From the NCBI GenBank assembly GCA_028287785.1, contig JAQBOZ010000032.1:1-50798 (forward strand): 50,798 bases of DNA, written 5' to 3'. The DNA is from Chlorobiota bacterium (lineage in GTDB: Bacteria; Bacteroidota; Ignavibacteria; OLB7). The first letter of the stretch is position 1, and each line of letters opens with the position of its first letter. Positions 30,379 through 45,676 of this stretch are shown in pieces. A program made the position numbers and the translations under genes. The notes beneath the pieces are model-generated. The model saw only the letters and a program-made list of their open reading frames with translations, did not search any database and was not told the origin of the DNA.

Positions 30379-30714
30379 TCAGGCCTCTTCGATACCATCG
30401 CGAATACCATCGCGCGCGACCTGAGCATCAGGCTCATCGTACTCGCGACTGCGCGGCATGGCATTGATTTTCGTAAGCTCGGCGTAAATAAAAGTCAGAG
30501 CTTCATTGAATGCCTCGCGGAACTTTTCGAAATCCTCCTTGTAGAGAAAAATCTTGAATTTCTCACGATCAGTCTCGCCGGTACGCTTACTTTCGGTGAT
30601 CGTCATATAGTAATCGTTTCCGGCGCGGGTGGATCGGACATCGATGTAGTATGTCCGCTTACCCGCTCTCACCCGACGTGAGAAGACTTCGTCACGATTA
30701 TTTTCCACGTGCAT
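30379..30714 (-). CDS. PUR-alpha-like nucleic-acid-binding protein (DUF3276)
   Basis: 111 residues; AAGGGA lies before the ATG. The core VFSRRVRAGKRTYYIDVRSTRAGNDYYMTITESKR then KFKIFLYKEDFEKFREAFNEALTFI is the DUF3276 PUR fold (beta4-alpha) found in Bacteroidota and relatives. PUR proteins bind single-stranded DNA or RNA; the bacterial role is unknown. The gene lies 38 bases after the stop of the propeller gene and has its own terminator. It is one of the best lineage indicators in the window. Confidence 0.93.
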   Translation of the reverse strand: MHVENNRDEVFSRRVRAGKRTYYIDVRSTRAGNDYYMTITESKRTGETDREKFKIFLYKEDFEKFREAFNEALTFIYAELTKINAMPRSREYDEPDAQVARDGIRDGIEEA

Positions 30715-30752
30715 TCCCTTGTAAAAAGTGATACATAGATTGTGTATATCGT

Positions 30753-33041
30753 TTACTGTCTGACAACCGCGATTTTACCCACAACTGCATCTTCGCCGCT
30801 ATTTGCGCCAGCCGTGATTATATATATGCCGCTGGCGACAACGCGACCGGAATTATCCAGCCCATCCCACACTGCCACGGCACCGCCGGGCGATTGGAAT
30901 TCGCGGACGAGCGTCATATCGACTGAGTAGATCTTTATGTTGGCATCGGCAGGCAGTCCCTGGATGCGGAGCGGTTCGGCGGAAGGCACTGCAAACGGCT
31001 GCGGGAAGACCGTGATCCCGCCATTCTCCTTTGGTGACTCTACAGCGAGCGTGGAGACCTTATTCAGACCGTTCGCGGTTCCAATATAAATATCTCCGGT
31101 GGCATCCACCGAAAGTATTGATCGGATATCGTTGCTTACGAGAGGGGATGTTGCAACCGTGAAAGTCCTGATCAGCGAGTCCCCTTCGGGATTGAAGAGA
31201 AAGACTCCCTGATTGGTGCCGATCCATTTCCGGTTCAGCGCATCGACCGCGATGGCGCTGACCGGAATGTCGACGAGGGGACGAATGATGCGAAAATGCG
31301 GTTTACTTTTGCTATTCACAACAGATACCGGATTATCGAGCACGACAACCCCCTTTTCCGAGCCGATCCAGAGCTCGCCAAGCCGGTCGATCACCAGCGC
31401 GCTCTGCCTGTCGGATTGCAGCGAGTTGTCGCCGCCGGTGCTTCGGATGATCGAGTCATCATCATCATCGGGATTCGAAGGGGTGCCGCGATCGTTGATG
31501 TAGATCAGCCCGAGATCCCCTCCAAGCCACTTCGTTCCGTTGTCATCGATCGCGATAAGGTGATAGGCGCGCAGAATCCGGCCGGGGGTGTAGAACGATT
31601 CCCATCCGGTTCCCTGGCTCCCCTGCTCCCCATCCCGGAGCTTGAGGACCAGCACGGGACCGGACACCGATTCATCGTTGTAGAAATTGACGATCCACGT
31701 CCTTCCGTTCCGGTCCGTCACCGCCTTGCCGACGATTGGAAACTCGTTGGTGGCGTTCTTTCCGCGAATCGGGGAGTTGGCGGCATCGAAATATTCGGCC
31801 TGAAAACCGTTTCCCTTCGGGGTGATCTGCGTGGCACTTGCCCCGAATGTCCCGGCCCATACCGAGCCGCCGGTGCCGGCCCCGACATGCCATACGCGGT
31901 TGGCATGCAGCCCCGGCGTGTTCTGCGTCGTAAACCGACTCCAGATCCCATCCTTCAATCGCGAAAGTCCATCGCCGCCGCTCGACGAGCCGCTGGCAGC
32001 CCAGATGGCGCTGTCGGTCGCGATGGTGAGATCGGAGAAAAGATTGCCGACCGGGGCGTTTGGAACCTTCAGCGCGAGGGAATCCCCCTCGGAGATCGCC
32101 ATCCCCTGCCGGTCCAGCCCAACGCCCGATCTTCCATCGGCCGCCACCGTGATCGCCCTGATCACATCGGGCGTGGTGGCCCCGCCGGAGAAGACGCCGT
32201 TCTCATAACGATAGATCCTGTTGTCGTTCAGTGCCGTGGCGATCGCCGTGGTCTGATTTCCCGCGAGGAGAATCGATGTGCGGGGAAGGTCCGTCCGCTC
32301 CACGGGCGCTCCACCGGCCACAGAGGTGAACGCCGCCGTGTCCGATCCGATCAGCAGTGAATCGCCACGAACGACGAGAGAATTGATCCTCCGATTCCCC
32401 AGCTCCGGCACCTTGCTCCACTCGGTCGGCACCTGAAGGTTCGGTGACGATGTCGAGGCGACAACAAGGCCGCCGCTGGTCCCCAGATAGATCCCGTTTC
32501 TCCAGAATGCGATCGAGTAGACCGAGGAGTTGGACTGAAGCGGCCCAAGGCTCTGGTACGATTCTATAAAGCTCGATGACCTGGCATCGTACACTCCCAC
32601 GCCGAAATCCGTCAGGATATAGACGCGGTCCCCGGAAAAACCGAATCCATTGATCCGTCGGCTTGGAAGCTCGGTCTTGCTGGTGATTTCGGTGGAATAG
32701 ATCCACAGGCCGCCGCTCCGCCGTATGCTCACCGAGCCGTCCAGCCCCCCCACATACATATCGCCCGTGACCGGATCGAAACCGATCGCGGTCGCGTTGA
32801 GATTGAGCAGCCCCTCGCTGGTCCGATAGACGATGAACGAATCCCTCGCGGCCGAATATCCAACCACGCCCCCGGTCGTCGCCGACCAGAGCGTGCCGGC
32901 GCTATCGAACGCGATTCCCTGAACCGAATTCAGAGCGCTGTAGACCGACCACGTATACTCTTCCTGCGCGCGCAGCGGCATCCAGGCCGCCGCGACCAGC
33001 CCGCTGATGACCACTGCCGCCAGCACTCTTGCTAATCTCAT
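30753..33041 (-). CDS. Secreted two-component-type propeller protein with sorting domain
   Basis: 762 residues from the ATG at 33041. A signal peptide precedes AQEEYTWSVYSALNSVQGIAFDSAGTLWSATTGGV. The body contains a tandem row of Reg_prop-like blades (about 12), each with a G-IW-G or VW-GT type motif, giving one or two seven-blade propellers. The last ~80 residues (ITVFPQPF...IKIYSVDM...WDGLDNSGRVVASGIYI...GKIAVVR) are a FlgD/Ig-like C-terminal sorting domain of the kind used by type 9 secretion. No histidine kinase module follows, so it is a stand-alone extracellular propeller rather than a hybrid sensor. Confidence 0.85.
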   Translation of the reverse strand: MRLARVLAAVVISGLVAAAWMPLRAQEEYTWSVYSALNSVQGIAFDSAGTLWSATTGGVVGYSAARDSFIVYRTSEGLLNLNATAIGFDPVTGDMYVGGLDGSVSIRRSGGLWIYSTEITSKTELPSRRINGFGFSGDRVYILTDFGVGVYDARSSSFIESYQSLGPLQSNSSVYSIAFWRNGIYLGTSGGLVVASTSSPNLQVPTEWSKVPELGNRRINSLVVRGDSLLIGSDTAAFTSVAGGAPVERTDLPRTSILLAGNQTTAIATALNDNRIYRYENGVFSGGATTPDVIRAITVAADGRSGVGLDRQGMAISEGDSLALKVPNAPVGNLFSDLTIATDSAIWAASGSSSGGDGLSRLKDGIWSRFTTQNTPGLHANRVWHVGAGTGGSVWAGTFGASATQITPKGNGFQAEYFDAANSPIRGKNATNEFPIVGKAVTDRNGRTWIVNFYNDESVSGPVLVLKLRDGEQGSQGTGWESFYTPGRILRAYHLIAIDDNGTKWLGGDLGLIYINDRGTPSNPDDDDDSIIRSTGGDNSLQSDRQSALVIDRLGELWIGSEKGVVVLDNPVSVVNSKSKPHFRIIRPLVDIPVSAIAVDALNRKWIGTNQGVFLFNPEGDSLIRTFTVATSPLVSNDIRSILSVDATGDIYIGTANGLNKVSTLAVESPKENGGITVFPQPFAVPSAEPLRIQGLPADANIKIYSVDMTLVREFQSPGGAVAVWDGLDNSGRVVASGIYIITAGANSGEDAVVGKIAVVRQ

Positions 33042-33197
33042 ACGGTATTGTACTTTACACGAAAGCCTGATAACGCGCCCTGAAACGCGTTTGACAGGGT
33101 GGAATGGATGGGGCGCAAAACAACGGCGCACGATCGTCCAATGCAAGGGATTACGGGCGCACCGCGCCGACCGGAAAAGGGAAAGGGTTATCGGGTA

Positions 33198-33689
33198 TCA
33201 GGAACGGCCGTTGGAAGCCCCGGTGGGAAGATTGCGGAGAAGATTGATCATCTCTATGCCGGCCTGCGCCGCCTCCCACCCCTTGTTCCCCGCCTTCGAG
33301 CCGGCCCGCTCGATCGCCTGCTCGATCGTATCGACTGTCAGCACACCGAACAGACACGGAACACCGCTCTCCATCATCGCCGACGCGATACCGGATGTCG
33401 CTCCGCCGGCTACATGCTCGAAATGCGGCGTCGACCCGCGAATCACGGCGCCGAGCGCGATAACCGCGTCGTAGGCTCCCGACATTGCCAGCCTCCGCAC
33501 AACCAGCGGCAGCTCGAACGCGCCGGGGCAGTAGACGATCGTCACGCCGGCCTCATCTCCCCCATGCATTCTGATACAGTCGATCGCCCCTTCCAGCAGG
33601 CGCTTCGTGATGAACTCGTTCCAGCGGCTGATCGCGATCGCGAATCTCTGGCCGGATGCGTTCAGCGAACCTTCGATTACCTGAGCCAT
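33198..33689 (-). CDS. ribH: 6,7-dimethyl-8-ribityllumazine synthase
   Basis: 163 residues, close to the family norm of 155-165. Visible motifs are RFAIAISRWNEFITKRLLEGA, CPGAFELPLV, ALGAVIRGSTPHFEHVA with the catalytic histidine, and FGVLTVDTIEQAIERAGSKAGNKGWEAA. It condenses 5-amino-6-ribitylaminouracil with 3,4-dihydroxybutanone-4-phosphate, the next-to-last step of riboflavin synthesis, normally in a 60-mer or smaller shell. No other rib gene is adjacent. A longer open frame upstream of the ATG at 33689 overlaps the divergent DUF547 gene and is spurious. Confidence 0.96.
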   Translation of the reverse strand: MAQVIEGSLNASGQRFAIAISRWNEFITKRLLEGAIDCIRMHGGDEAGVTIVYCPGAFELPLVVRRLAMSGAYDAVIALGAVIRGSTPHFEHVAGGATSGIASAMMESGVPCLFGVLTVDTIEQAIERAGSKAGNKGWEAAQAGIEMINLLRNLPTGASNGRS

Positions 33690-33776
33690 ACAATATTTGT
33701 TGGTAGTCAAACCCCGGAGGGGAAAGCTCGACAAAGCCATTGTCGAAAAAATCGGTGGAAATATAAGGAATACGCG

Positions 33777-34535
33777 ATGACCGCTTCCCACAAATCTCTC
33801 ACGTCGGCACGCTGGAGCATCCCGGCGCTTCTGGTCATCCTGACCGCATTCCATGCCGCCGGAGCAATGGCGCAGACCGGGGCCATCGACCACTCGGCGT
33901 TCGGCCGGGTGCTTGCGTCGGCGGCCGCGAATGGCCGTGTCGACTACGCGAGGTTTCGGGGAAATGCCGATTTCGCCGCCTACCAGGCATCGATCGGCAA
34001 TGCATCGCTGCGCGGCGCCTCGGCCGATGAACAGATGGCGTTCTGGCTCAATGCCTACAACGCCTCGGTGATCAGAAACGTCATCGACAACCCCGGCATG
34101 CGGCGCCCGATCGATGTCAAGGGGTTCTTCGATGCCCGTACATTCAGGATCGCGGGAAGCACATTGACGCTGAACGATATGGAGAACAGGATGCTTCGCG
34201 AGCGGTTCAGGGAGCCTCTGATCCATTTCGGGCTGGTCTGCGCGGCGCGAAGCTGCCCTCCGCTGCAACCACGCACGTTCGACGCGCGCACCGTCCGCGC
34301 CCAGCTTGCGCGCAACGCCACGGCCTATCTCGCGTCCGCCTACAACCGTTTCGACGCGGCAACCAACACGCTCACGCTCTCGAAGATCTTCGACTGGTAC
34401 AAGGGGGATTTTGGTGGCGATGCCGGGATTCGCGAGTTCGTGAAGAAGTACGGCACGCCGGCAATGAGGCAGAGGATATCCTCATCGACAACGATCGCGT
34501 TCATGGAATACGACTGGACGCTGAACTCGAAATAG
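33777..34535 (+). CDS. DUF547 exported protein
   Basis: 252 residues from the ATG at 33777, with AAGGA upstream. A signal peptide ends at AMAQ near residue 33. The DUF547 core has MAFWLNAYNASVIRNVID, GLVCAARSCPPLQPRTFDARTVRAQLARNA and a final KIFDWYKGDFGG. This family has a papain-like fold in some members; the family's function is not established. It is convergent with the lipoprotein gene at 34539, only 3 bases from its stop. It is divergent from ribH. Confidence 0.88.
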   Translation: MTASHKSLTSARWSIPALLVILTAFHAAGAMAQTGAIDHSAFGRVLASAAANGRVDYARFRGNADFAAYQASIGNASLRGASADEQMAFWLNAYNASVIRNVIDNPGMRRPIDVKGFFDARTFRIAGSTLTLNDMENRMLRERFREPLIHFGLVCAARSCPPLQPRTFDARTVRAQLARNATAYLASAYNRFDAATNTLTLSKIFDWYKGDFGGDAGIREFVKKYGTPAMRQRISSSTTIAFMEYDWTLNSK

Positions 34536-34538
34536 CCC

Positions 34539-35036
34539 CTATTTCGGCGCCAGCATCATATGATACGCGCCGATGACGGAGTACGGACAGCATCCCTCCA
34601 CCGCGCGAATCGTGTCGGCCCGCTGTAGTCCGTAGCGGCTTCCCCTCTCCGCGCGTATGAGAAAACCACCGCCGTGCAATCCATCCTGGGAATTCAGAAG
34701 ATAGCCATCGCCGGAAGGCGGAACGGTCATGAACGTGGTGGTATCATGCACCACCGTATCCTTCCCGTTGATCTGCCTGTGCGTGCTGTCGATCCGTTGC
34801 AGCACCACCGTCGCGTCGGTAACGTTGCGCGGACGGAGTACCGTTGTATCGATCGGCCGATTCAGGGAATCGATGAGGACCGTATCGATCCGCATGCTGT
34901 CCAGCACATGAATCTGAAGCAACGGCGGCGCGGGGGCGCACTCGACGCCCGAGCAGTTTTCCTTGCATCCGGCGCCCCCAAGAATAAAGAGCACGAGGAG
35001 CGTGAAAAGGAATGGAGCGATCCGTTTCATAACCAT
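34539..35036 (-). CDS. Putative lipoprotein, unknown function
   Basis: 165 residues; ATG at 35036 or 35030. The signal peptide ends in a lipobox LGGAGC. The mature protein has a tandem cysteine-rich start (CKENCSGVECAPAPPL), a Thr/Asp-rich middle (DSTHRQINGKDTVVHDTTTFMTVPPSGDG) and a C-terminal CC-containing segment. I do not recognise the family. It follows the GT-C gene by about 33 bases. Confidence 0.7.
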   Translation of the reverse strand: MVMKRIAPFLFTLLVLFILGGAGCKENCSGVECAPAPPLLQIHVLDSMRIDTVLIDSLNRPIDTTVLRPRNVTDATVVLQRIDSTHRQINGKDTVVHDTTTFMTVPPSGDGYLLNSQDGLHGGGFLIRAERGSRYGLQRADTIRAVEGCCPYSVIGAYHMMLAPK

Positions 35037-35069
35037 CCGGCGTTCGAAAAGAGGGAAAAACGACGCGCA

Positions 35070-36773
35070 TCAACGCGCCGACGGGATCTGGAATGCAACA
35101 TACCGGCGCGTCTGAAACGCAACCGCATAGCCGACCGGGAGAATCTCCGGCGTGCTGAATTTCAAATGCCTGATCAGTCTGTCACGTTCCACCACGAAAA
35201 GGGCACCCGCGGGAGCATTGGCCGCCTCCGCCGTCAGCCAGGGCATCACCAGCGCGGAATCGGCGGGAGGCTGAACCCGTCGGAAGGCGATATCGGAACG
35301 CCACCCCACATCGATGCCACCGAGGTAATAGGAAATCTGCGGATTCCGCTCGAACCCGGCAACCACCATGTCGCGATAACCACCCCGCTCGACAAACCGC
35401 GCCAGCTCCCTCCCGCCGTCATCATACTGCTCGCGATCAAGCACGCCGATGGTATACAGGCCGAAGCCGGAGAGCGGGAGAAGAAAGAGATATGGAAGCA
35501 TCCCCCGCAGCCGCTCCGGAAGGCCAAACCGGTAGATGAGCAACGCCAGAACAACGGACGCCGCGATCAGCGCGTACAACGGAATCAATCCCCACCGGCC
35601 GGTGTCATGGAGGCTTGCATGGGGAGTTCCGCCAAGCAGGAGCTTTATCGCATCGCGCCATTCCTGGCTTGCCGCCCACACCGATGCCAGCAGGCTGATT
35701 CCGATCAGCAGCGCCAGCACTCTTTTCGGGATCTCTCCCAGCATCGCGCGACGGAATTCACGCCCGGCCAGCAGCGACGCGGGGACCAGCATCGGCAGGA
35801 TATAAAACGCCAGCTTCGTTCGCATTATCGAGAAGACGACAAAGAAGACGAGAAACCAGACCGCCGGAAGCCACCAGATCGCTCCATCGCCATTGTTCCG
35901 ATTTCTGAACGACCTTACGATTCCATACGCAAACCACGACAGCCCGATTGGGAAAAGCACCAGCAACTGATTGGCGAAATAGAATATCTCCAGCGATTTC
36001 TGATTTCCCTCGATGCCGCTGACCACGCGGGCGAACATCTCGGACGCACGCAACAGCCAGAGCGGATTTCCATTTCCGTGAACGATCACCATGTAGCCAT
36101 GCCAGGGACCCGCAACCAGCAGCGATGCAACAAGCATCAGAACGATTTTTTTTACGCGATCGCCGGAGAAGCGATCGCTCCGGGAAACCCACCAGATCCC
36201 GTACGCCAGCGGAATCCCGAAACCGACGAACAATTTTGTCATCAACGCGCAGCCAACGGCCAGACCCGAAAGAAATGCAAATCGATTGGAGGATTTTTTC
36301 TCGGCGATGATGATCAGATACACGGCCAGTGCCAGAAAAAAAACGAGCGCGGAATCGAACTGTCCCTGGCGCGCATAAAAATCGACAAACGGATTTATCC
36401 CATATAACAGCGCGGCGATAAATCCCACATCCCTCCCCGCAAGCTGTTTTCCGATGGCGAAAATAATCAGCAGCGTCCCCGCCGCGAGCAACGCCGACGG
36501 GAACCGAACGGCAAATTCGGTGATGCCGAATATTTTCAGCGAGAGCGCTTCCAGCCAGATATAGAGCGGTGGGTGAAGCGCGGAATAAAGCCCGTCGATC
36601 GCATGCGCGGATTGATCGATCCATCCGCCGAATTTAAGAATGCTGATGGCGCGCACGGCATACAGCCCTTCATCCCACGCCTGCATATCGGCAAACCCGA
36701 GATTCACGAAGCGAAGCGCCCCCAGGACAAGGAGAATCAGCGGATATGACCATGCTCTCCACCGCCCGGCCAT
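35070..36773 (-). CDS. GT39/ArnT-like polyprenyl-phosphate glycosyltransferase
   Basis: 567 residues from the ATG at 36773; a GTG at 36827 immediately after the DprE1 stop is an alternative that suggests translational coupling. About 11-12 membrane helices are visible. The first periplasmic loop has GFADMQAWDEGLYAVRA with the DE motif typical of GT-C/PMT_2 enzymes that use polyprenyl-phosphate sugars, and LHPPLYIWLEAL is the usual following piece. It should transfer a sugar from a lipid carrier to a periplasmic acceptor. Adjacent DprE1- and DprE2-like genes make arabinofuranosyl-phospholipid a plausible donor. Confidence 0.8.
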   Translation of the reverse strand: MAGRWRAWSYPLILLVLGALRFVNLGFADMQAWDEGLYAVRAISILKFGGWIDQSAHAIDGLYSALHPPLYIWLEALSLKIFGITEFAVRFPSALLAAGTLLIIFAIGKQLAGRDVGFIAALLYGINPFVDFYARQGQFDSALVFFLALAVYLIIIAEKKSSNRFAFLSGLAVGCALMTKLFVGFGIPLAYGIWWVSRSDRFSGDRVKKIVLMLVASLLVAGPWHGYMVIVHGNGNPLWLLRASEMFARVVSGIEGNQKSLEIFYFANQLLVLFPIGLSWFAYGIVRSFRNRNNGDGAIWWLPAVWFLVFFVVFSIMRTKLAFYILPMLVPASLLAGREFRRAMLGEIPKRVLALLIGISLLASVWAASQEWRDAIKLLLGGTPHASLHDTGRWGLIPLYALIAASVVLALLIYRFGLPERLRGMLPYLFLLPLSGFGLYTIGVLDREQYDDGGRELARFVERGGYRDMVVAGFERNPQISYYLGGIDVGWRSDIAFRRVQPPADSALVMPWLTAEAANAPAGALFVVERDRLIRHLKFSTPEILPVGYAVAFQTRRYVAFQIPSAR

Positions 36774-36827
36774 CGTTTCACGATCGCGTGATTCCACGTT
36801 TGTTCTGGGAAAATGGATAGCGCTCAC

Positions 36828-38315
36828 TCAGCGAGCATGTTCAACAGGCTCCGCGTCCGCGGCTTCCGGCGATTGGAACAGCCGGCGGTAGAGATTGGTT
36901 TCAAGAATTCCGTCGGGATCGCACGCCTCCTTCAGCTTCCTGAATTTCCGCACCGCCGATTCCCCCAGATATTGTTTCACCGATGGGGCGGAGAGCGTGC
37001 TGTCCTTGGCGAAATAAAATCTGCCGCCAGCGTTCAGCACAACCTGATCGAGCTTTGCGGCAAGCGCCCAGATGGCGCGACGATTTTTTTTCGTGATACG
37101 GAAATCGAGCGCAAGGGAATAACCATCCACGCCGTGAGTCATCAGAAAATCATCACGACGATGCCGTTTGAAGACCGCGAGATAGGGAGGAAATCCCGCC
37201 CGCTGCGCCAGCGTGAGCTGCTCCTTGAACGCGCCGGCGGCATGTGCCTCGGGAATAAAGCTCTGATATTGAATCAATCCCCCCACACCGTACGATCGTT
37301 TCCAGTTCGGCACATAATCGAGAAGAAATGCGAACGCGGCGTGCGACTGACGGAATTTCTTTCCGCCGCGATCGAGAATTCTGCTCGACAGGAATTTCGC
37401 GAGGTTGACGAACCGGACACCGGCGTTGTTGACGAACGGCCGCATAAACCGCCACAGAATCGATTTCGGCAGCAGGCCGAGAATGGTATCGGGAAGCTGC
37501 TGATAATCCAGCCGGAGCGTCTGCGCGGGATTGGGATCATCCCCCGGCTTCAGATAATTGGCCTCGTGGATCACGCCGCGCCCCAGATTTTTCCCCGACG
37601 CCACCCCGTCGATCCAGCCGACGAGATAATCCGCGCGCTCCATCCGCTCCTCGAATATCCGGATCATCGCATCGAGCGATGGCGTGTTGATCGGCTCCAC
37701 TTCCATCAGCCCCGAATAGACTTTTTTCATCCGGATCGTCAGGGTGATAAAACAGCCGAGCATGCCGAAGCCGCCGATTGCCGCGTAAAAAAGATCGGGG
37801 TTCTCCTGGCGCGAACAACGTCGCAGCTCGCCGGTTGGAAGGAGAATTTCGAATTCGGTGATGTGATCGCCGATCGGGCCGACGCGGAAATTATTCTTGC
37901 CGTGGATGTTCATCGAGGCGCAGCCGCCGAGCGTGGGGAACATCGTGCCGGGAACAACGGGGGGCCACCATCCATCGGGAAGGATGTACTCCCAGAGCTG
38001 GCGGATCGTCACGCCGGATTCCACGCGGATGATGCCGGTGTCCGGGTTCCAGTCGAGGATGCGGGAAAACCGGGTGAGATCGAGGACGACATTTTCGGAA
38101 TTGAGGGCCGCGTCGCCGTAGCTGCGGCCCGCGCCGCGAAATGCAATCGAGCGTCCCGATGTCCTCGCGATCTCGAAGACATCTCTGATCCCCTGAAGCG
38201 TGGAGGGCCGGAAAACATACGCCACGGCGTCGGAGCTCATCCCCCACCCCTCCACCAGCTCGAGATTCTGCGACGGAAGAATATAATTTCCTTCGATTCC
38301 CATACGTTCGGCCAT
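36828..38315 (-). CDS. DprE1-like decaprenylphosphoryl-ribose oxidase
   Basis: 495 residues. FAD-binding vanillyl-alcohol-oxidase-fold: FRGAGRSYGDAA (60-70), PGTMFPTLGGCASMNIHGKN (122-141), and the substrate-side motifs YGVGGLIQYQSFIP (342-355) and FYFAKDST (433-440), whose lysine corresponds to Lys418 of mycobacterial DprE1. The position of Cys387, the benzothiazinone target, is Ala402 here (GYSLALDF). DprE1 oxidises C2 of polyprenyl-phospho-ribose to the 2-keto form that DprE2 reduces to arabinose. The SDR gene just before it and the GT-C just after support that role. It could also be another sugar oxidoreductase of the same fold. Confidence 0.82.
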   Translation of the reverse strand: MAERMGIEGNYILPSQNLELVEGWGMSSDAVAYVFRPSTLQGIRDVFEIARTSGRSIAFRGAGRSYGDAALNSENVVLDLTRFSRILDWNPDTGIIRVESGVTIRQLWEYILPDGWWPPVVPGTMFPTLGGCASMNIHGKNNFRVGPIGDHITEFEILLPTGELRRCSRQENPDLFYAAIGGFGMLGCFITLTIRMKKVYSGLMEVEPINTPSLDAMIRIFEERMERADYLVGWIDGVASGKNLGRGVIHEANYLKPGDDPNPAQTLRLDYQQLPDTILGLLPKSILWRFMRPFVNNAGVRFVNLAKFLSSRILDRGGKKFRQSHAAFAFLLDYVPNWKRSYGVGGLIQYQSFIPEAHAAGAFKEQLTLAQRAGFPPYLAVFKRHRRDDFLMTHGVDGYSLALDFRITKKNRRAIWALAAKLDQVVLNAGGRFYFAKDSTLSAPSVKQYLGESAVRKFRKLKEACDPDGILETNLYRRLFQSPEAADAEPVEHAR

Positions 38316-38325
38316 GCCTCGAATA

Positions 38326-39078
38326 TCAGATGCTCAGACGCCGGAAAAGAAATGACGGGATGGCGCGCACCACCATCCCCACGATTCGCCAGCGACCCGG
38401 AATATAGGCGACGTTCCTGCCAGCGCGCGCCGCGGCGATAATCAGCTCCGCGGCACGATCGGCGGAGATCAGCCAGAAGAGCCCCGGCAATCCCTGCGTC
38501 ATCTCGGTATCGATAAAGCCGGGCTTTATGGTAACCACCTTCACACCGAACCGCGCAAGCCTGTTTCTGAGCGATTCGAGAAACGCGTTGAGCGCCGCCT
38601 TGCTGGTGCCATACGCGGGCGAGCCGCGCCTGCCACGATCGCCCGCAATCGAGGAGATACCGACGATCGTCCCGCGCTTCGTCCGCTCGAACCGGACTGC
38701 GGCCTGATTGAGCCACGCCATCGCGCCTATCGTGTTGACCTCCATCATCATCGCGTCCTTCTCGGTGTTGTACTCATCCACCGCCACGGTCGGCATTACG
38801 CCGGCCGCGTAGAAGATCGCGTCCAGCCCTCCAAGCTCCTTTGCCAGCTCCTGAAACAGAAACGGCACCTCTCCGCGATTAGCCACATCATGCGCCGCGG
38901 TGAAGGCGATCGTGCTGCCGGCGGCGCTGTTCAATTCATCGGCAAGGCGATCCAGAGAATCCTTCCGGCGTGCCACCATCGCCACCCGGCAGCCGTCTTT
39001 TGCCAGCCGCCGCGCCAGCGCCTCTCCGATGCCGGATGATGCGCCCACGACAATGGCATGTTTCCAGGGTAGACTCAT
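38326..39078 (-). CDS. Short-chain dehydrogenase (DprE2-like)
   Basis: 250 residues from the ATG at 39078. A classical SDR: VVGASSGIGEALARRLA cofactor loop, FYAAGV, the serine in GISSIAGDRG and the catalytic YxxxK in AYGTSKAAL. DprE2 is an SDR that reduces the keto-ribose lipid made by DprE1 to the arabinose epimer. Nine bases separate it from the DprE1-like gene, and the length and motifs fit, so I favour DprE2. SDRs are too alike to assign by sequence alone. It lies 81 bases after the trans-sulfuration gene. Confidence 0.75.
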   Translation of the reverse strand: MSLPWKHAIVVGASSGIGEALARRLAKDGCRVAMVARRKDSLDRLADELNSAAGSTIAFTAAHDVANRGEVPFLFQELAKELGGLDAIFYAAGVMPTVAVDEYNTEKDAMMMEVNTIGAMAWLNQAAVRFERTKRGTIVGISSIAGDRGRRGSPAYGTSKAALNAFLESLRNRLARFGVKVVTIKPGFIDTEMTQGLPGLFWLISADRAAELIIAAARAGRNVAYIPGRWRIVGMVVRAIPSFLFRRLSI

Positions 39079-39159
39079 AGTCGAAAAATCAGGGGAAAAC
39101 CGATCGCGATAAAAGCGGATCGGGAAATTGGAACGCGGGCGGGCCATCCGCCCCTTCCA

Positions 39160-40302
39160 TTACGCGCGGAGAGCCTGCTCGATATCGGCGATCAGATCAT
39201 CGACATCCTCGATGCCGACCGAAAAGCGTATCAGCCCATCGGTGATGCCGAGCGCGGCGCGGGTTTCCGGCGGCACCGAACCGTGCGTCATCGAAACAGG
39301 ATGGCAGAGAAGCGACTCGACGCCACCGAGCGATTCGGCGAACGCAAACACCCTGACGGCGGCGCAGAAGGCGCGGGCTTTTTCAAGCGAGCCGAGATCG
39401 GCGGAGATCATGCCGCCGAAGTTCCGCATCTGGCGGAGGGCAAGCTCGCGCTGGGGAAAATCGGCGAGGCCGGGGTAGTAGATCTTCGTGAACTCCGGGC
39501 GTCCCGTCAGATATTCGGCGACGCGGGCGGCGTTGGAGCAATGCCGGTCCATCCTGACGCTGAGCGTCTTGAGCGACCGCAGCGTGAGATAGCAATCCTG
39601 CGGGCCGGGAACCGCGCCGCACGCATTCTGAAGGAAGCCCAGGCGCGTGGCGATTGCGTCATCGTTTGTCACCACCAGGCCGCCGATCAGATCGCTATGC
39701 CCGCCGATATATTTCGTCGAGGAATGGAGCGCGATCGTCGCGCCGTGGCTGATGGGGTTCTGGAGATACGGGCTCATGAAGGTGTTGTCCACCACCAGCA
39801 TAAGGCCGGTTTCCTTCGCGATCGCGCCAAGCGCGCCCAGATCGCAGAGGCGCATCATCGGGTTGGTGGGGGTTTCGGCGTAGATCATCCGGGTCGCATC
39901 GGTGATCGCGGCGCGGACGTTCCCGGGATTACGGAGATCGACGTAGGTGAAGGTGTAGCCGTAGCCGCGGAGGACCTTGTCGAAGAGACGGAAGGTGCCG
40001 CCGTACATATCATCGCCGGCAATCACATGATCCCCCGGCGAGAGGAGCCGCATCACGGCGTCGATGGCGGCCAGGCCGCTGGCAAACGCAAAGCCGCGCG
40101 TCCCTCCCTCCAGATCGGCAATACAGGCCTCCAGCGCCGATCGCGTCGGGTTCTGCGTCCGGGCATATTCAAAGCCCTTGTGCTGCCCGATCCCCTGCTG
40201 CGCGTAGGTGGAGGTCTGAAAAATCGGGACGTTGACCGCCCCGGTCACCTCTTCGGGCTCCTGTCCCGAGTGAATAGCCTTTGTCGAAAAACCGTATCCC
40301 AT
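39160..40302 (-). CDS. Cystathionine gamma-synthase/lyase-type PLP enzyme
   Basis: 380 residues from the ATG at 40302. PLP fold-type I trans-sulfuration family: YARTQNPTRSALE, AFASGLAAIDAVM, FVDNTF-like VVDNTFMSPYLQNP, HSSTKYIGGHSDLIGG with the PLP lysine, and a final ESLLCHPVSMTHGSVP. It makes or breaks cystathionine in methionine/cysteine metabolism. Synthase, beta-lyase and gamma-lyase cannot be told apart here. The longer starts (GTG at 40371, ATG at 40338) are less likely. Confidence 0.9.
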   Translation of the reverse strand: MGYGFSTKAIHSGQEPEEVTGAVNVPIFQTSTYAQQGIGQHKGFEYARTQNPTRSALEACIADLEGGTRGFAFASGLAAIDAVMRLLSPGDHVIAGDDMYGGTFRLFDKVLRGYGYTFTYVDLRNPGNVRAAITDATRMIYAETPTNPMMRLCDLGALGAIAKETGLMLVVDNTFMSPYLQNPISHGATIALHSSTKYIGGHSDLIGGLVVTNDDAIATRLGFLQNACGAVPGPQDCYLTLRSLKTLSVRMDRHCSNAARVAEYLTGRPEFTKIYYPGLADFPQRELALRQMRNFGGMISADLGSLEKARAFCAAVRVFAFAESLGGVESLLCHPVSMTHGSVPPETRAALGITDGLIRFSVGIEDVDDLIADIEQALRA

Positions 40303-40391
40303 ATGCGTTCCCGTTCGTTTGATTGCTTCGCTCACCATATCCTCTTCAGTCAATGCGGCATCGTCCCTCACGCGCCGCCATATCCCTCAAC

Positions 40392-41711
40392 TCACTGTCC
40401 GGCCTCCTCGCCGGTCCCGGAGCTGTCGTTCCCCCCCTTTGCCAGCGTGATGCCGTACTGCGCCTGATCCAGCGCGGCTTTCGCGTCCTTATCCCCCTGC
40501 AACGCCTCGGCAACGGCATCCTCGATCGCCTTCTCCATCTCCAGCCATTTCGGGTGCATCGGGGTCATCCTGGAGGAGCGGAGCTGATCGGTAAAGACCT
40601 TGCGCGCCGGGCCCTGAAGGAATGGATCGCCGGCGAGCGAAAGATCGGCAGGCGTTGTGCCGCCGGGCAATGCCTTTGCGAATTCCAGCGCCTGTTTCGG
40701 CGAGGTAAGGAATGCGATCAGTTTCTTCGCCTCCTGCTGGTGCGCTGATGCGCCGTTGATGGCAAGATATTCCCCGCCGGCGAAGGAAACGGCATCCTTC
40801 CCCGCGAACTTCGGAAGCGTGCGGAGCGCGTAACGGAGATCCGGCTTGTCCTTGGCGATACGATCGACAAGCCACGGCCCGGAGATCCAGTAGCCGAGCT
40901 TCCCGCTCACAAAGAGCTGATCCAGCCCCTTCTGCGAATCGGTGAACCCGGCGCGCGCAAGGCTCAGGTACATCTCCAGCGCGGCGACGTTCTCGGCGGA
41001 GTTGATGACGGGAACGCCCTGGCTGTTCAGCACATCACCGCCGTTCGACCAGAAGAACGGGAGAATCTTCTTGTACAGCCGATGCTGGTCGGAGCCGTTG
41101 GCGCCGAACCCGTAGATCCCCTGATCGCTCGCGCGGAGCTTCTGCACCATCTCCGCGTGGTTGAGGACATCATCCCATGTTGCATCCGGCTTGGTGGTAT
41201 CAACCCCGGCCTGCGCCAGCAATCCCTGGTTCACGAAGAGGACGCGGGTATCGCTTGTCCAGGGCCATGCGTAGACGCCGTTGTTCCATTTGCCAGGGGC
41301 AAGGATCGTTTCGGTGAACCTCCCCGTGCTGTCGCCGCCCAGTTTGAGCTGATCGGCCAGCTTGCCGGACGCGGCGAACTGCGCCACCCAGTCGCTCCCA
41401 AGCTCCAGCATATCGGGGGCGGCGCTGGCGTTGAAGGCGGACATCAGCTTGGCCTTGCCATCGTTCCAGCTCAGATCCTGAAGCTCGACATGGATCGTCG
41501 GGTTCTCATCCTCGAACTCCTTGATCCTGTCCATCAGCGCTTTTTTCTGTCCCGGTTCCGACTGAAAATGCCAGAAGGTGATGACGGTTTTCCCGTCGGC
41601 GCCGGGCTTGCCGTCCCCCTTGCCACCGCCGCAGCCCTGAAGCATGAGCGATGTGGAGAAGCCGACCAGAAGGATTACAAGCAGCGGAAGGAAACGTGCG
41701 TAGCGGGGCAT
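40392..41711 (-). CDS. Sugar-type ABC solute-binding lipoprotein
   Basis: 439 residues from the ATG at 41711. The signal peptide ends in lipobox LQGC. The mature part has the family-1 extracellular solute-binding fold: TVITFWHFQSEPG near the start, PDMLELGSDWVAQFAASGKLADQL, and WISGPWLVDRIAKDKPD. It should bind an oligosaccharide or sugar and deliver it to an ABC permease. No permease or ATPase of an import type is adjacent, so it is an orphan binding protein in this window. Confidence 0.85.
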   Translation of the reverse strand: MPRYARFLPLLVILLVGFSTSLMLQGCGGGKGDGKPGADGKTVITFWHFQSEPGQKKALMDRIKEFEDENPTIHVELQDLSWNDGKAKLMSAFNASAAPDMLELGSDWVAQFAASGKLADQLKLGGDSTGRFTETILAPGKWNNGVYAWPWTSDTRVLFVNQGLLAQAGVDTTKPDATWDDVLNHAEMVQKLRASDQGIYGFGANGSDQHRLYKKILPFFWSNGGDVLNSQGVPVINSAENVAALEMYLSLARAGFTDSQKGLDQLFVSGKLGYWISGPWLVDRIAKDKPDLRYALRTLPKFAGKDAVSFAGGEYLAINGASAHQQEAKKLIAFLTSPKQALEFAKALPGGTTPADLSLAGDPFLQGPARKVFTDQLRSSRMTPMHPKWLEMEKAIEDAVAEALQGDKDAKAALDQAQYGITLAKGGNDSSGTGEEAGQ

Positions 41712-41814
41712 GAATCGGTTGATTATGTGCGAGAGAATATTGATCGTTCGATGGAACCGGATGCGCGCGCCCTCGGAAGCCGCGGACTGCATGCGAGAGC
41801 CGTGAGCGCCATCC

Positions 41815-42372
41815 CTATTTGGGGCGGATGGCGACAACCAGGCCGATGATCGAGATGGCGACCACCGCGACATCGCCGATGATCGAGAGCACCTGGGTGA
41901 GCGTGTTGATGGAATCGCCGGGGATGATCACCGTGTCGTCAGGATAGAGGACGCCGTTCTCCTTCGGGTTTCCGCTCTGCTTGAACTCATCAACGTTGAA
42001 CATCGCCACCGGCCGCGAGGCAAGGCTGCTGTCCACGTTGACATTATGAACGATGCGGACTTCGGTCAGCTTTGCACGCTCCACGGGGCCACCCGCGAGC
42101 GAGATCAGCTCAATCAGCGTGGTGGAGCTGGAGACCCTGTATTTTCCCGGCGCGCGGACAAATCCCCAGATGTTGACGTTGATCGGGATCTCACCGCTTC
42201 GGCTGTAATCGTAGAACGATCCGCTGGCGTTCCCCGCCACCGATGATCCGCTCGTGGTGGTCGCTCCGCCACCGGTCGGCTGCCCGCTGGCGATCGTGAC
42301 CGCGAGGAGAAGACCGAGCGAAACGGCGATGGCGCCCGCGGCGCGATAAAACCGGCAAAGGCGATTGATCAT
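41815..42372 (-). CDS. SLBB-domain exported protein
   Basis: 185 residues from the ATG at 42372. A signal peptide (hydrophobic core AIAVSLGLLLAVTIA) precedes a Gly/Thr/Ser-rich linker. The conserved segment INVNIWGFVRAPGKYRVSSSTTLIELISLAGGPVERAKLTEV is an SLBB domain, as in polysaccharide-export and periplasmic accessory proteins. A membrane segment ends the protein (VLSIIGDVAVVAISIIGLVVAI). It lacks the full poly-export N-domain, so it is a reduced relative. Confidence 0.8.
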   Translation of the reverse strand: MINRLCRFYRAAGAIAVSLGLLLAVTIASGQPTGGGATTTSGSSVAGNASGSFYDYSRSGEIPINVNIWGFVRAPGKYRVSSSTTLIELISLAGGPVERAKLTEVRIVHNVNVDSSLASRPVAMFNVDEFKQSGNPKENGVLYPDDTVIIPGDSINTLTQVLSIIGDVAVVAISIIGLVVAIRPK

Positions 42373-42453
42373 GAAGTACACGGATGTTGACGAGAGCCCG
42401 ATGGAGGCGCGGGCTCCGGATTGACCAGGTGAAGTCCCGGACGTTATAGCACG

Positions 42454-42498
42454 GCAGAGGCCCCTGGCATCCCTTGGGAGGTGCGCGAGGGGCCCTGC
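42454..42498. terminator. Long hairpin after secA
   Basis: Arms 42454-42464 and 42489-42498 pair (GCAG-a-GGCCCC with GGGGCC-CTGC). The hairpin lies between the secA stop (42527) and the SLBB gene. It lacks a T-tract on the minus strand, so termination is only probable. A second, 7-bp hairpin lies at 42394-42416 in the SLBB 5' region. Confidence 0.5.
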
Positions 42499-42526
42499 AA
42501 GATACATCGTCACGCAGACACGGCCG

Positions 42527-45500
42527 CTACTGCTGTCCGTGGCAGTGCTTGAACTTCTTTCCGCTTCCGCAGTAACAGAGATCGTTTCGTCCGACCTTCG
42601 GGTTGTCGCGCACCACGGTCCGCTGGACCGGCTGTGCTTCCTCGCCGCCGCCGGCATCGACGGTTCCGGGAACCTCTCCACCGGCCGCGGCAACGGCGGC
42701 GGCGGTCTCGGGATCGGCGTTCAGCCCCATGCCCGACGCGTTTGCGTGGGTAAACCGAAGCTGGCGCGTGCTGGAGGTTGTCCGGCGCTCGCGCGGAAGC
42801 CCCTGGTTGCTCGGGTTCGGACGGCGGCGTGCCTCGGGCGCGCGACCGGGGATTTCAGGATAGTAACGGTAGACGAACGACATCACCTCGACATCGATAT
42901 CCTGAATCATCTTGGAGAAGATCTCGAACGCCTCCTTCTTGTACTCCAGCACCGGGTCCTTCTGCCCGTAGGCGCGGAGATAGATGCCCTCCTTCAGCTC
43001 ATCCATGTCGCGGAGATGCTCGCGCCACCGCTCGTCGATGATCGAAAGGACGGCGTAGCGCTCCAGGTTCGCCATGAACTCCGAGCCAAGCTGCTCCTCC
43101 TTCCGCTGGTACCAGTCCCGCGCGAACTCCATCATCTTCTCGCGAACCCCATCCTCGCCAAGCTCCTTCGCCTTTGCCGGGTCAAGATCGACCGGCATCA
43201 CCAGCTTGGTGCGAAGCTCGTTCTCGATCGTCTCGATGCTCTCCGGGAAGTTGGCGTCGATCAGATTGTCGATGAAATCGGCGACGTAATCCATGATCTC
43301 GCTCTTCAGCCGCTCGCCGTGCAGCGCATGCCGGCGGCGATCGTAGATCACCTCGCGCTGCTGGTTCATCACGTTGTCGTACTCCAGCAGGCGCTTGCGG
43401 ATCGCGAAGTTGTTCTCCTCCACCTTCCGCTGCGCGCGCTCCACCGACTTGTTGAGCATCTTGTGCTCCAGAACCTCATCGGCCCCTCCCATCTTGTCCA
43501 TCCAGCCGGCGATCCGCTCGCTTCCGAAGAGGCGCATCAGATCATCCTCCAGCGAGATAAAGAACTGCGACGAGCCGGGGTCGCCCTGACGACCGGCGCG
43601 GCCGCGAAGCTGGCGATCGATGCGGCGCGCCTCATGGCGTTCGGTGCCAAGGATGTGCAATCCGCCAAGGTCCTTCACCCCCGGCCCCAGCTTGATATCG
43701 GTGCCGCGACCTGCCATGTTGGTGGCGATCGTCACGGCCCCCTTCTGCCCGGCGCCGGTGACGATCTCCGCCTCCCGCGCGTGCTGCTTGGCGTTGAGCA
43801 CCGAGTGCGGGATCTTCGCCCGCTGAAGCATCCTGCTGATGGTCTCCGAGACTTCGACATTGGTGGTACCGACCAGCACCGGACGGCCGAGCGTGCGGAG
43901 CTTCTCCACTTCCTGCACCACCGCGTTGTACTTCGCCCGCTTGGTGCGGTAGATCAGATCGTTGCGGTCGTCGCGAACCACGTTCCGGTTCGTCGGGATC
44001 ACCACAACGTCCAGTTTGTAGATCTCGTTGAACTCCCCTTCCTCTGTTTCAGCCGTGCCGGTCATGCCGGAGAGCTTCTTGTAGAGGCGGAAATAATTCT
44101 GAATGGTGATGGTCGCGAACGTCTGCGTGTCCTGCTCCACCACCACGCTCTCCTTTGCCTCGATCGCCTGATGGAGCCCCTCGGAATAGCGGCGCCCTTC
44201 CAGAATGCGGCCGGTGAAGGTATCCACGATCTTGATCTTCCCCTGGTCCACCACATACTCCACGTCCTTCTCGTACAGGGCGTAGGCGCGGAGAAGCTGG
44301 GTGATGGTATGGATACGATCGGAGCGCTCGGCAAACCGGCGGACCGCCTCCTCGCGACGCTGCTGCTTGACCTCGTGCGTCTCCTCGCTCCCCTCGATCA
44401 GGCTCAACTCGGTGGCAAGATCGGGGAGAAGGAAGACATCGGGATCTTCGCCGGCGGCGGCGATCATCTGGCGTCCCTTGTCGGACATGTCGATCGAGTG
44501 ATGCTTCTCCTCGATCGCGAAGTACAACTCCTGATCGATCTCCTGCATCCGTGCCCCCTTGTCGCGGAGGTAGTCCAGCTCGGTATCCTGCACCAGCTTC
44601 ATGATGCCGGGCTCCTGCGTGAGCTTCGCCAGACGGTTGTTCTTCGGCATGCCGCGCCGCGCGCGGAGCAGGAAAACGCCCGCGGCCTCGCGATCCTTCT
44701 TGTCGCCGGTTGTCAGCAGCTTCTCCGCGTCGGCGATCATCTTGGCAACCTCGCGACCCTGCACCTGCACCATCTTATCGACGCGCGGGCGCATCAGATC
44801 GAACGTCTGATCGGCAGCGTTCGCCACCGGGCCGGCGATGATAAGCGGCGTGCGGGCCTCATCGACCAGCACGGAATCGACCTCGTCGACAATCGCGTAG
44901 TTATGGCCGCGCTGCACCATATCCTCGGGGCGCTGCACCATGTTATCGCGCAGGTAGTCGAAACCGAACTCGTTGTTCGTGCCGAACGTGATGTCCGCCG
45001 AATACTGGTTCAGCCTGTGCTGCGGCTCCATGTTGGACTGAATGCAGCCCACCGTCAGCCCCAGCCAGCGATAGATCGGGCCCATCCACTCGGAGTCGCG
45101 CTTGGCGAGATAATCGTTGACGGTGATGATATGGACGCCCCGGGCCGGAAGCGCGTTGAGATAGGTGGCAAGGGTCGAGGTAAGCGTCTTTCCCTCGCCC
45201 GTCGCCATCTCCGCGATCTTTCCCTGGTGCAGAACCATGCCGCCGATAAGCTGGACATCGTAGTGGACTTCCACCCACGTGATGATCGAGCCGCCTGCAT
45301 CCCACTGCTTGCCCACATGACGGCGGCAGGCCTCCTTCACCACGGCGAACGCCTCGGGAAGGATCTCGTTGAGGATCTCCTCGGTGGCCTCGTAGATGGA
45401 CCGTTCGAGCTGATCAAGCTCCTCGTAGATCTCATCCCGCTCCACCGAATCGATATCCTCCTTCAGCCGGGCGTTCAACTCATCGACGTGCGCCTTGTCC

Positions 45501-45676
45501 TCGGCGATCCGCTCCTCGATCCTCGCGCGGAACTCGACGGTCTTCCCCTGAAGTTCCTCGTCGGAGAGCGACTGATACTCCTCGAACAATTCGTTGATCT
45601 CGTCGACCATCGGCCGGAGATCCTCGACGTCCTTCTGACGCTTCGAGCCGAAGAACTTTTCTAATACTTTAAGCAT
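42527..45676 (-). CDS. secA: Preprotein translocase ATPase SecA
   Basis: 1049 residues. SecA drives pre-proteins through SecYEG. The Walker A MATGEGKT lies at 157-164, about 50 residues later than in E. coli because of a charged, coiled-coil-like insertion around 45-105. VDEVDSVLVDEART is the Walker B/DEAD region, and GRAGRQGDPGSSQFFIS is in the second nucleotide-binding fold. The C-terminal ~80 residues are a linker ending in the zinc/SecB-binding CYCGSGKKFKHCHG. The total is longer than E. coli's 901, as in many Bacteroidota. A leader of almost 390 bases precedes it. Confidence 0.97.
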   Translation of the reverse strand: MLKVLEKFFGSKRQKDVEDLRPMVDEINELFEEYQSLSDEELQGKTVEFRARIEERIAEDKAHVDELNARLKEDIDSVERDEIYEELDQLERSIYEATEEILNEILPEAFAVVKEACRRHVGKQWDAGGSIITWVEVHYDVQLIGGMVLHQGKIAEMATGEGKTLTSTLATYLNALPARGVHIITVNDYLAKRDSEWMGPIYRWLGLTVGCIQSNMEPQHRLNQYSADITFGTNNEFGFDYLRDNMVQRPEDMVQRGHNYAIVDEVDSVLVDEARTPLIIAGPVANAADQTFDLMRPRVDKMVQVQGREVAKMIADAEKLLTTGDKKDREAAGVFLLRARRGMPKNNRLAKLTQEPGIMKLVQDTELDYLRDKGARMQEIDQELYFAIEEKHHSIDMSDKGRQMIAAAGEDPDVFLLPDLATELSLIEGSEETHEVKQQRREEAVRRFAERSDRIHTITQLLRAYALYEKDVEYVVDQGKIKIVDTFTGRILEGRRYSEGLHQAIEAKESVVVEQDTQTFATITIQNYFRLYKKLSGMTGTAETEEGEFNEIYKLDVVVIPTNRNVVRDDRNDLIYRTKRAKYNAVVQEVEKLRTLGRPVLVGTTNVEVSETISRMLQRAKIPHSVLNAKQHAREAEIVTGAGQKGAVTIATNMAGRGTDIKLGPGVKDLGGLHILGTERHEARRIDRQLRGRAGRQGDPGSSQFFISLEDDLMRLFGSERIAGWMDKMGGADEVLEHKMLNKSVERAQRKVEENNFAIRKRLLEYDNVMNQQREVIYDRRRHALHGERLKSEIMDYVADFIDNLIDANFPESIETIENELRTKLVMPVDLDPAKAKELGEDGVREKMMEFARDWYQRKEEQLGSEFMANLERYAVLSIIDERWREHLRDMDELKEGIYLRAYGQKDPVLEYKKEAFEIFSKMIQDIDVEVMSFVYRYYPEIPGRAPEARRRPNPSNQGLPRERRTTSSTRQLRFTHANASGMGLNADPETAAAVAAAGGEVPGTVDAGGGEEAQPVQRTVVRDNPKVGRNDLCYCGSGKKFKHCHGQQ

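Follow-up and report, generated by a model that had tools for sequence, protein, structure and literature searches.

We are fairly confident that the SDR and the DprE1-like FAD enzyme encoded next to each other in the window (the whole stretch of DNA analyzed here, 50,798 nucleotides) form a polyprenyl-phospho-β-D-ribofuranose 2′-epimerase, which would serve a lipid-arabinose pathway for an envelope glycan. A route from polyprenyl-phospho-ribose to polyprenyl-phospho-arabinose is well supported because of the identity of the DprE1-like protein, the NoeO-like family of the SDR, and the presence of a suitable UbiA in the genome.

Results

The window is the complete contig C3 of a 4.75-Mb genome (95% complete), whose class takes in Kapabacteria and Ignavibacteria-like MAGs. 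As described in the initial annotation, three consecutive minus-strand genes are present at positions 35070 to 39078. They encode a DprE2-like SDR, the candidate 2′-keto reductase (38326..39078, minus strand; adh_short, 4e-46), a DprE1-like FAD oxidase, the candidate polyprenyl-phospho-ribose 2′-oxidase (36828..38315, minus strand; assigned by NF053785, DprE1 in the PDB, residues, and fold), and a GT-C glycosyltransferase of the PMT_2/ArnT kind (35070..36827, minus strand; PMT_2, 1.9e-23; ArnT structure 5ezm, 1.8e-08). The SDR frame is open up to an ATG at 39147 (longer open reading frame, 38326-39147), and alignment with relatives of 247 to 250 amino acids makes ATG 39078 the most likely start. 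The SDR and DprE1 genes are close, as claimed, but the distance from the SDR stop to the DprE1 ATG is 10 bases and not 9. The GTG start proposed for the GT-C gene does lie at the DprE1 stop, which it abuts directly (TGA-GTG), and an in-frame ATG follows 54 bases downstream of the GTG. Given the abutting stop and start, the GT-C may be cotranslated with DprE1. From 30379 to 45676, the gene order SecA-SLBB-SBP-cystathionine synthase-[SDR-DprE1]-hypothetical-DUF547-lumazine synthase-PorZ-DUF3276 is kept across the family, PorZ being suggestive of type IX secretion. A tie of the trio to porZ, 2 kb past it, was considered and dropped; only the family-conserved gene order is common to them.

The DprE1-like protein gives a full-length match to the DprE1 model NF053785 (286 bits, E = 6e-85, model positions 4 to 447 of 449), with the runner-up family at 67 bits, and matches mycobacterial DprE1 in the PDB over residues 21 to 479 (E = 2.4e-57); by these two comparisons, a chance match is excluded as the source of the similarity. 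The motifs IHGKN, YGVGGLIQYQSFIP, and AKDS, all named in the initial annotation, were found. In Mtb numbering, Y60, D62, G117, T118, H132, K134, W230, L317, Q334, Q336, V365, K367, and D389 are invariant in 88 of 88 subfamily members, and K418 is kept in 87 of the 88, the remaining one being gapped. The window protein itself has all of the catalytic and substrate residues (Y60, H132, K134, W230, Q334, Q336, K367, D389, and K418), with K418 corresponding to its K437. The canonical DprE1s in the comparison, NoeH among them, also retain the residues listed for the subfamily (one canonical sequence lacks Y60 and D62 because its contig ends there). Mtb C387, the target of benzothiazinones, is replaced by Ala in the window protein and in all 88 subfamily members.

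The structural comparison with mycobacterial DprE1 points the same way. An AlphaFold2 model built from 11 relatives (pLDDT 73.8) had DprE1 entries as its top matches in both structure comparisons (Z 33 to 36); the best of them reached a TM of 0.87 by target length and a Z of 35.9 (2.7 Å over 406 residues), followed by the next fold family at Z 29.7. These data bear on another view, in which the FAD enzyme would oxidize small-molecule sugars or alditols and the adjacent SDR would have nothing to do with it. The FAD_binding_4 superfamily is indeed common to both, and lactone and alditol oxidase structures have the same fold as the model. However, DprE1 is the best match in fold and sequence by a clear margin, the pocket residues are absent from the other FAD oxidase compared, and pairing with an SDR across phyla as well as the UbiA operons described below argue against an isolated oxidase. 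We regard this view as largely refuted and as very improbable. A phylogeny in which DprE1 branches with unrelated oxidases had been named in the initial annotation as evidence against the pathway; scores, structure, and conserved residues all contradict it, although the rooted tree gave no information.

At 286 bits, the DprE1-like protein is below the NCBI equivalog cut-off of 500 bits. Since canonical nonactinobacterial DprE1s also fail to reach it (401 bits in Paracoccus and 417 bits), the cut-off marks the actinobacterial enzyme. We class the window protein as a separate-clade relative of DprE1, outside NCBI's actinobacterial equivalog, with C2′-oxidation of polyprenyl-phospho-ribose as its candidate reaction.

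In the SDR, a glycine-rich GASSGIG motif and a YxxSK motif are visible. Its best NCBIfam is PRK07102 (209.6 bits), ahead of the DprE2 model (140.9 bits), and PRK07102 is also the top family for NoeO of IRBG74 (336.5 bits) and for every other DprE2 tested. The DprE2 equivalog cut-off is reached neither by the SDR (141 versus 250 bits) nor by NoeO itself, which scores only 192. The DprE2-like identity proposed for the SDR held up through its pairing with DprE1 and the family in common with NoeO, although the assignment rests mostly on the partnership with DprE1. It is imaginable that the pair epimerizes a polyprenyl-phospho-pentose to a product other than arabinofuranose, for example another epimer, with the SDR of this clade reducing differently. 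On the DprE2 model, the SDRs of the clade score 110 to 157 bits, compared to 178 to 192 for the rhizobial and canonical enzymes, and the scores of several other SDR models are not far below. Moreover, xylofuranose is known to be made from the same lipid-ribose by an SDR epimerase (PMC11127046). Conversely, the full pocket of a C2′-oxidase in the DprE1-like protein argues for oxidation at C2, and the xylose enzyme acts alone, as a GalE-like epimerase with no DprE1 (PMC11127046); a different product is, in our view, improbable.

The genome encodes four UbiA proteins: a heme O synthase, an MqnP/UbiA-like enzyme, a DPPR synthase, and one that is unassigned. Absence of a UbiA-type DPPR synthase had been put forward as an argument against the pathway; since the protein on contig C30 scores above the curated cut-off (284 versus 234 bits), this argument falls away. 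The C30 UbiA also matches the mycobacterial structure 8j8j and carries the PRPP-site signature NDIADRRADAEHPKKRFRP. The signature NDxxDxxxDxxHxxKxxRP was present in 78 of the 78 UbiA loci examined; it replaced a stricter pattern requiring KR, which matched 30 to 42% of the loci. The UbiA gene is unlinked to the SDR-DprE1 pair in this genome, being on a different contig, and the protein has no HAD domain. A search for a GtrA-type flippase, limited to PF04138, gave no match in the 95% complete genome.

Scanning 84,980 species genomes yielded 245 relatives, the best 80 of which (50 to 78% identity) were analyzed as loci. According to the phyla named in the records, these best 80 come from Armatimonadota, Sumerlaeota, Chloroflexota, one planctomycete, and Kapabacteria/Ignavibacteria. 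An SDR is found in the neighborhood cluster of DprE1 at 74 of them, and several of the remainder are cut by contig ends. One locus (L083, JADZEY010000018.1) is recorded as Armatimonadetes, a public name that looks wrong; its contig equals in length C18 of G003, a genome grouped in the window's family and having its PorZ synteny. Genomes with two or three DprE1-like matches include G303, G184, and G153 of the Chloroflexota.

At five loci (L103, L105, L107, L110, and L137), DprE1 is directly followed by a UbiA of the same type, the two genes usually overlapping by 4 bases. Three of these loci (L105, L107, and L110) continue with an ABC transporter ATPase and then a glycosyltransferase; a Pfam check of the L105 operon gave ABC_tran and GT4. 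Judged by this gene order, SDR-DprE1-UbiA operons are formed in Armatimonadota. At three more (L095, L112, and L109, whose contig is also that of L067), UbiA lies at a distance of 3 to 4 kb, in a convergent cluster that includes GT-C-like genes. Altogether, UbiA is within 7 kb of DprE1 at 8 loci, compared to about 0.3 in 80 expected by chance (our own estimate for a single gene in a 4-Mb genome), and these 8 loci fall in two separate UbiA clades.

Co-occurrence was seen on a wider scale. UbiA is present in 47 of 50 MAGs with window-type DprE1 and, among 201 Chloroflexota genomes, in 39/41 with DprE1 of either clade versus 88/160 without (Fisher P = 2e-7, uncorrected for kinship). In the window's class, the figures are 22/24 with DprE1 and 31/37 without (P = 0.31), which says nothing because UbiA is nearly universal there. 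The DPPR synthase-type UbiAs in genomes without DprE1 presumably make lipid-ribose, and their frequency would fit a lipid-ribose pathway that works alone, with epimerases as accessories (PMC11127046).

The claim that SDR, DprE1, and GT-C form a unit did not survive comparison with relatives. Three of the four family relatives have the SecA-to-DUF3276 order and the pair at the corresponding site, and in the fourth (G002), the order is partly kept, with a GT2-like gene (named by eye from its sequence) in place of the GT-C; in all four, other genes or nothing follow DprE1. Since the GT-C is missing from these relatives and the SDR is kept with DprE1, it is the pair that is conserved as a unit, and we gave up the idea of a conserved trio completed by the GT-C. 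The GT-C is a later neighbor whose partnership with the pair is uncertain, and the odds that it is the transferase using the product of the pair are about even. Alternatively, and with a roughly equal chance, the GT-C is unrelated and uses another lipid-linked sugar, which would be compatible with the pair as an epimerase. Besides being absent from the family relatives, the GT-C has homologues in 22 of 61 class genomes irrespective of DprE1, the closest one (44%) sits in a genome without DprE1 (G006), and the window's genome offers nine PMT_2 stretches, four of them clustered on contig C13. On the other hand, the gene abuts the DprE1 stop, and known systems likewise end in poorly conserved transferases, such as the NoeP product, which has no Pfam match. 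GT-C enzymes are acceptor specific and diverge fast, and nonconservation is therefore not decisive. The four tandem PMT_2-type genes on C13 (G000:C13:29341-34863) are possible other users of a lipid-linked sugar.

Rooting of the DprE1 tree with GlcD-like and lactone oxidase-like proteins failed, with branch lengths of 10 and long-branch warnings, and therefore, only the unrooted split was used. It separates the window subfamily from mycobacterial, rhizobial, and other canonical forms with an SH-aLRT of 93. In the UbiA tree, the NoeC and HAD-UbiA types, which are found beside canonical DprE1, are split from the UbiAs of the window subfamily with a support of 100. The coupling of the two clades is not strict, since in family f13, the second UbiA type goes together with a canonical DprE1.

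Discussion

The trees and the distribution make it somewhat likely that a second polyprenyl-phospho-arabinose lineage, with its own DprE1/DprE2 and DPPR synthase clades, evolved separately and extends across Armatimonadota, Sumerlaeota, Chloroflexota, Planctomycetota, and Kapabacteria/Ignavibacteria; arabinofuranose would thus be a common but unrecognized part of envelope glycans. In our model, for which we infer the chemistry, the stereochemistry of the product, the flipping, and the acceptor, the UbiA-type synthase on C30 would transfer ribose-5-phosphate from PRPP to polyprenyl phosphate, and a phosphatase would then strip the 5′-phosphate from the polyprenyl-linked ribose. The FAD enzyme would oxidize C2′ of polyprenyl-phospho-ribose, and the SDR would reduce the ketone from the opposite face, giving polyprenyl-phospho-arabinofuranose. 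A flippase may turn this product across the membrane, where GT-C transferases on the outside would add arabinofuranose to the envelope glycan; the GT-C beside the pair is one candidate.

DprE1 ranks among the leading drug targets in tuberculosis and is usually treated as a mycobacterial specialty. The separate clade seen in several environmental phyla keeps the DprE1 pocket but has Ala at Cys387, and it offers natural variants for studies of mechanism and selectivity. To our knowledge, the surface glycans of these lineages are almost unknown; the model predicts arabinofuranose in their envelopes. Literature searches for DprE1 together with Chloroflexi found nothing, and those with Bacteroidetes found nothing relevant.

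The novelty implied by an occurrence outside Actinobacteria is gone. DprE1 of either clade is present in 64 of 296 sampled Bacteroidota genomes, mostly canonical by score, and the pathway is known from published cases: the noeCNHOP arabinosylation operon of Rhizobium sp. IRBG74 and Azorhizobium, which puts D-arabinofuranose on Nod factors (PMC5080398), the pilin of P. aeruginosa, which is decorated with D-arabinofuranose (PMC10115798), and DprE1/E2 homologues in systems for O antigens and arabinofuranose-containing glycans (PMC11127046). What is new is the separate DprE1 clade and its spread. The three-component systems for extracytoplasmic pentofuranosylation have, as here, a polyprenyl-phospho-ribose synthase and a GT-C, and an accessory epimerase sets which pentose is added, DprE1/E2 homologues being named for arabinofuranose glycans (PMC11127046). 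The prototype combines a MATE flippase and a GT136 transferase with a fused PRP phosphatase (PMC11127046), whereas the UbiA of the window's genome carries no HAD domain. Like this genome, the noe system (L079) comprises a UbiA DPPR synthase, DprE1 (NoeH), DprE2 (NoeO), and a transferase outside Actinobacteria. However, its genes form one operon that includes the GtrA-family NoeN and has DprE1 ahead of DprE2, whereas the SDR comes first in the window and UbiA is elsewhere; NoeH is about 31% identical to the window DprE1, and the noe UbiA belongs to another clade. In mycobacteria, DprE1 and DprE2 work with the DPPR synthase Rv3806c and GT-C arabinosyltransferases. Mycobacterial DprE1 is about 28% identical to the window protein and differs at Cys387, and the GtrA-type partner of the mycobacterial system has no counterpart by the PF04138 search; yet the proposed chemistry, the fold, the pocket residues, and the signature of the DPPR synthase are alike in both.
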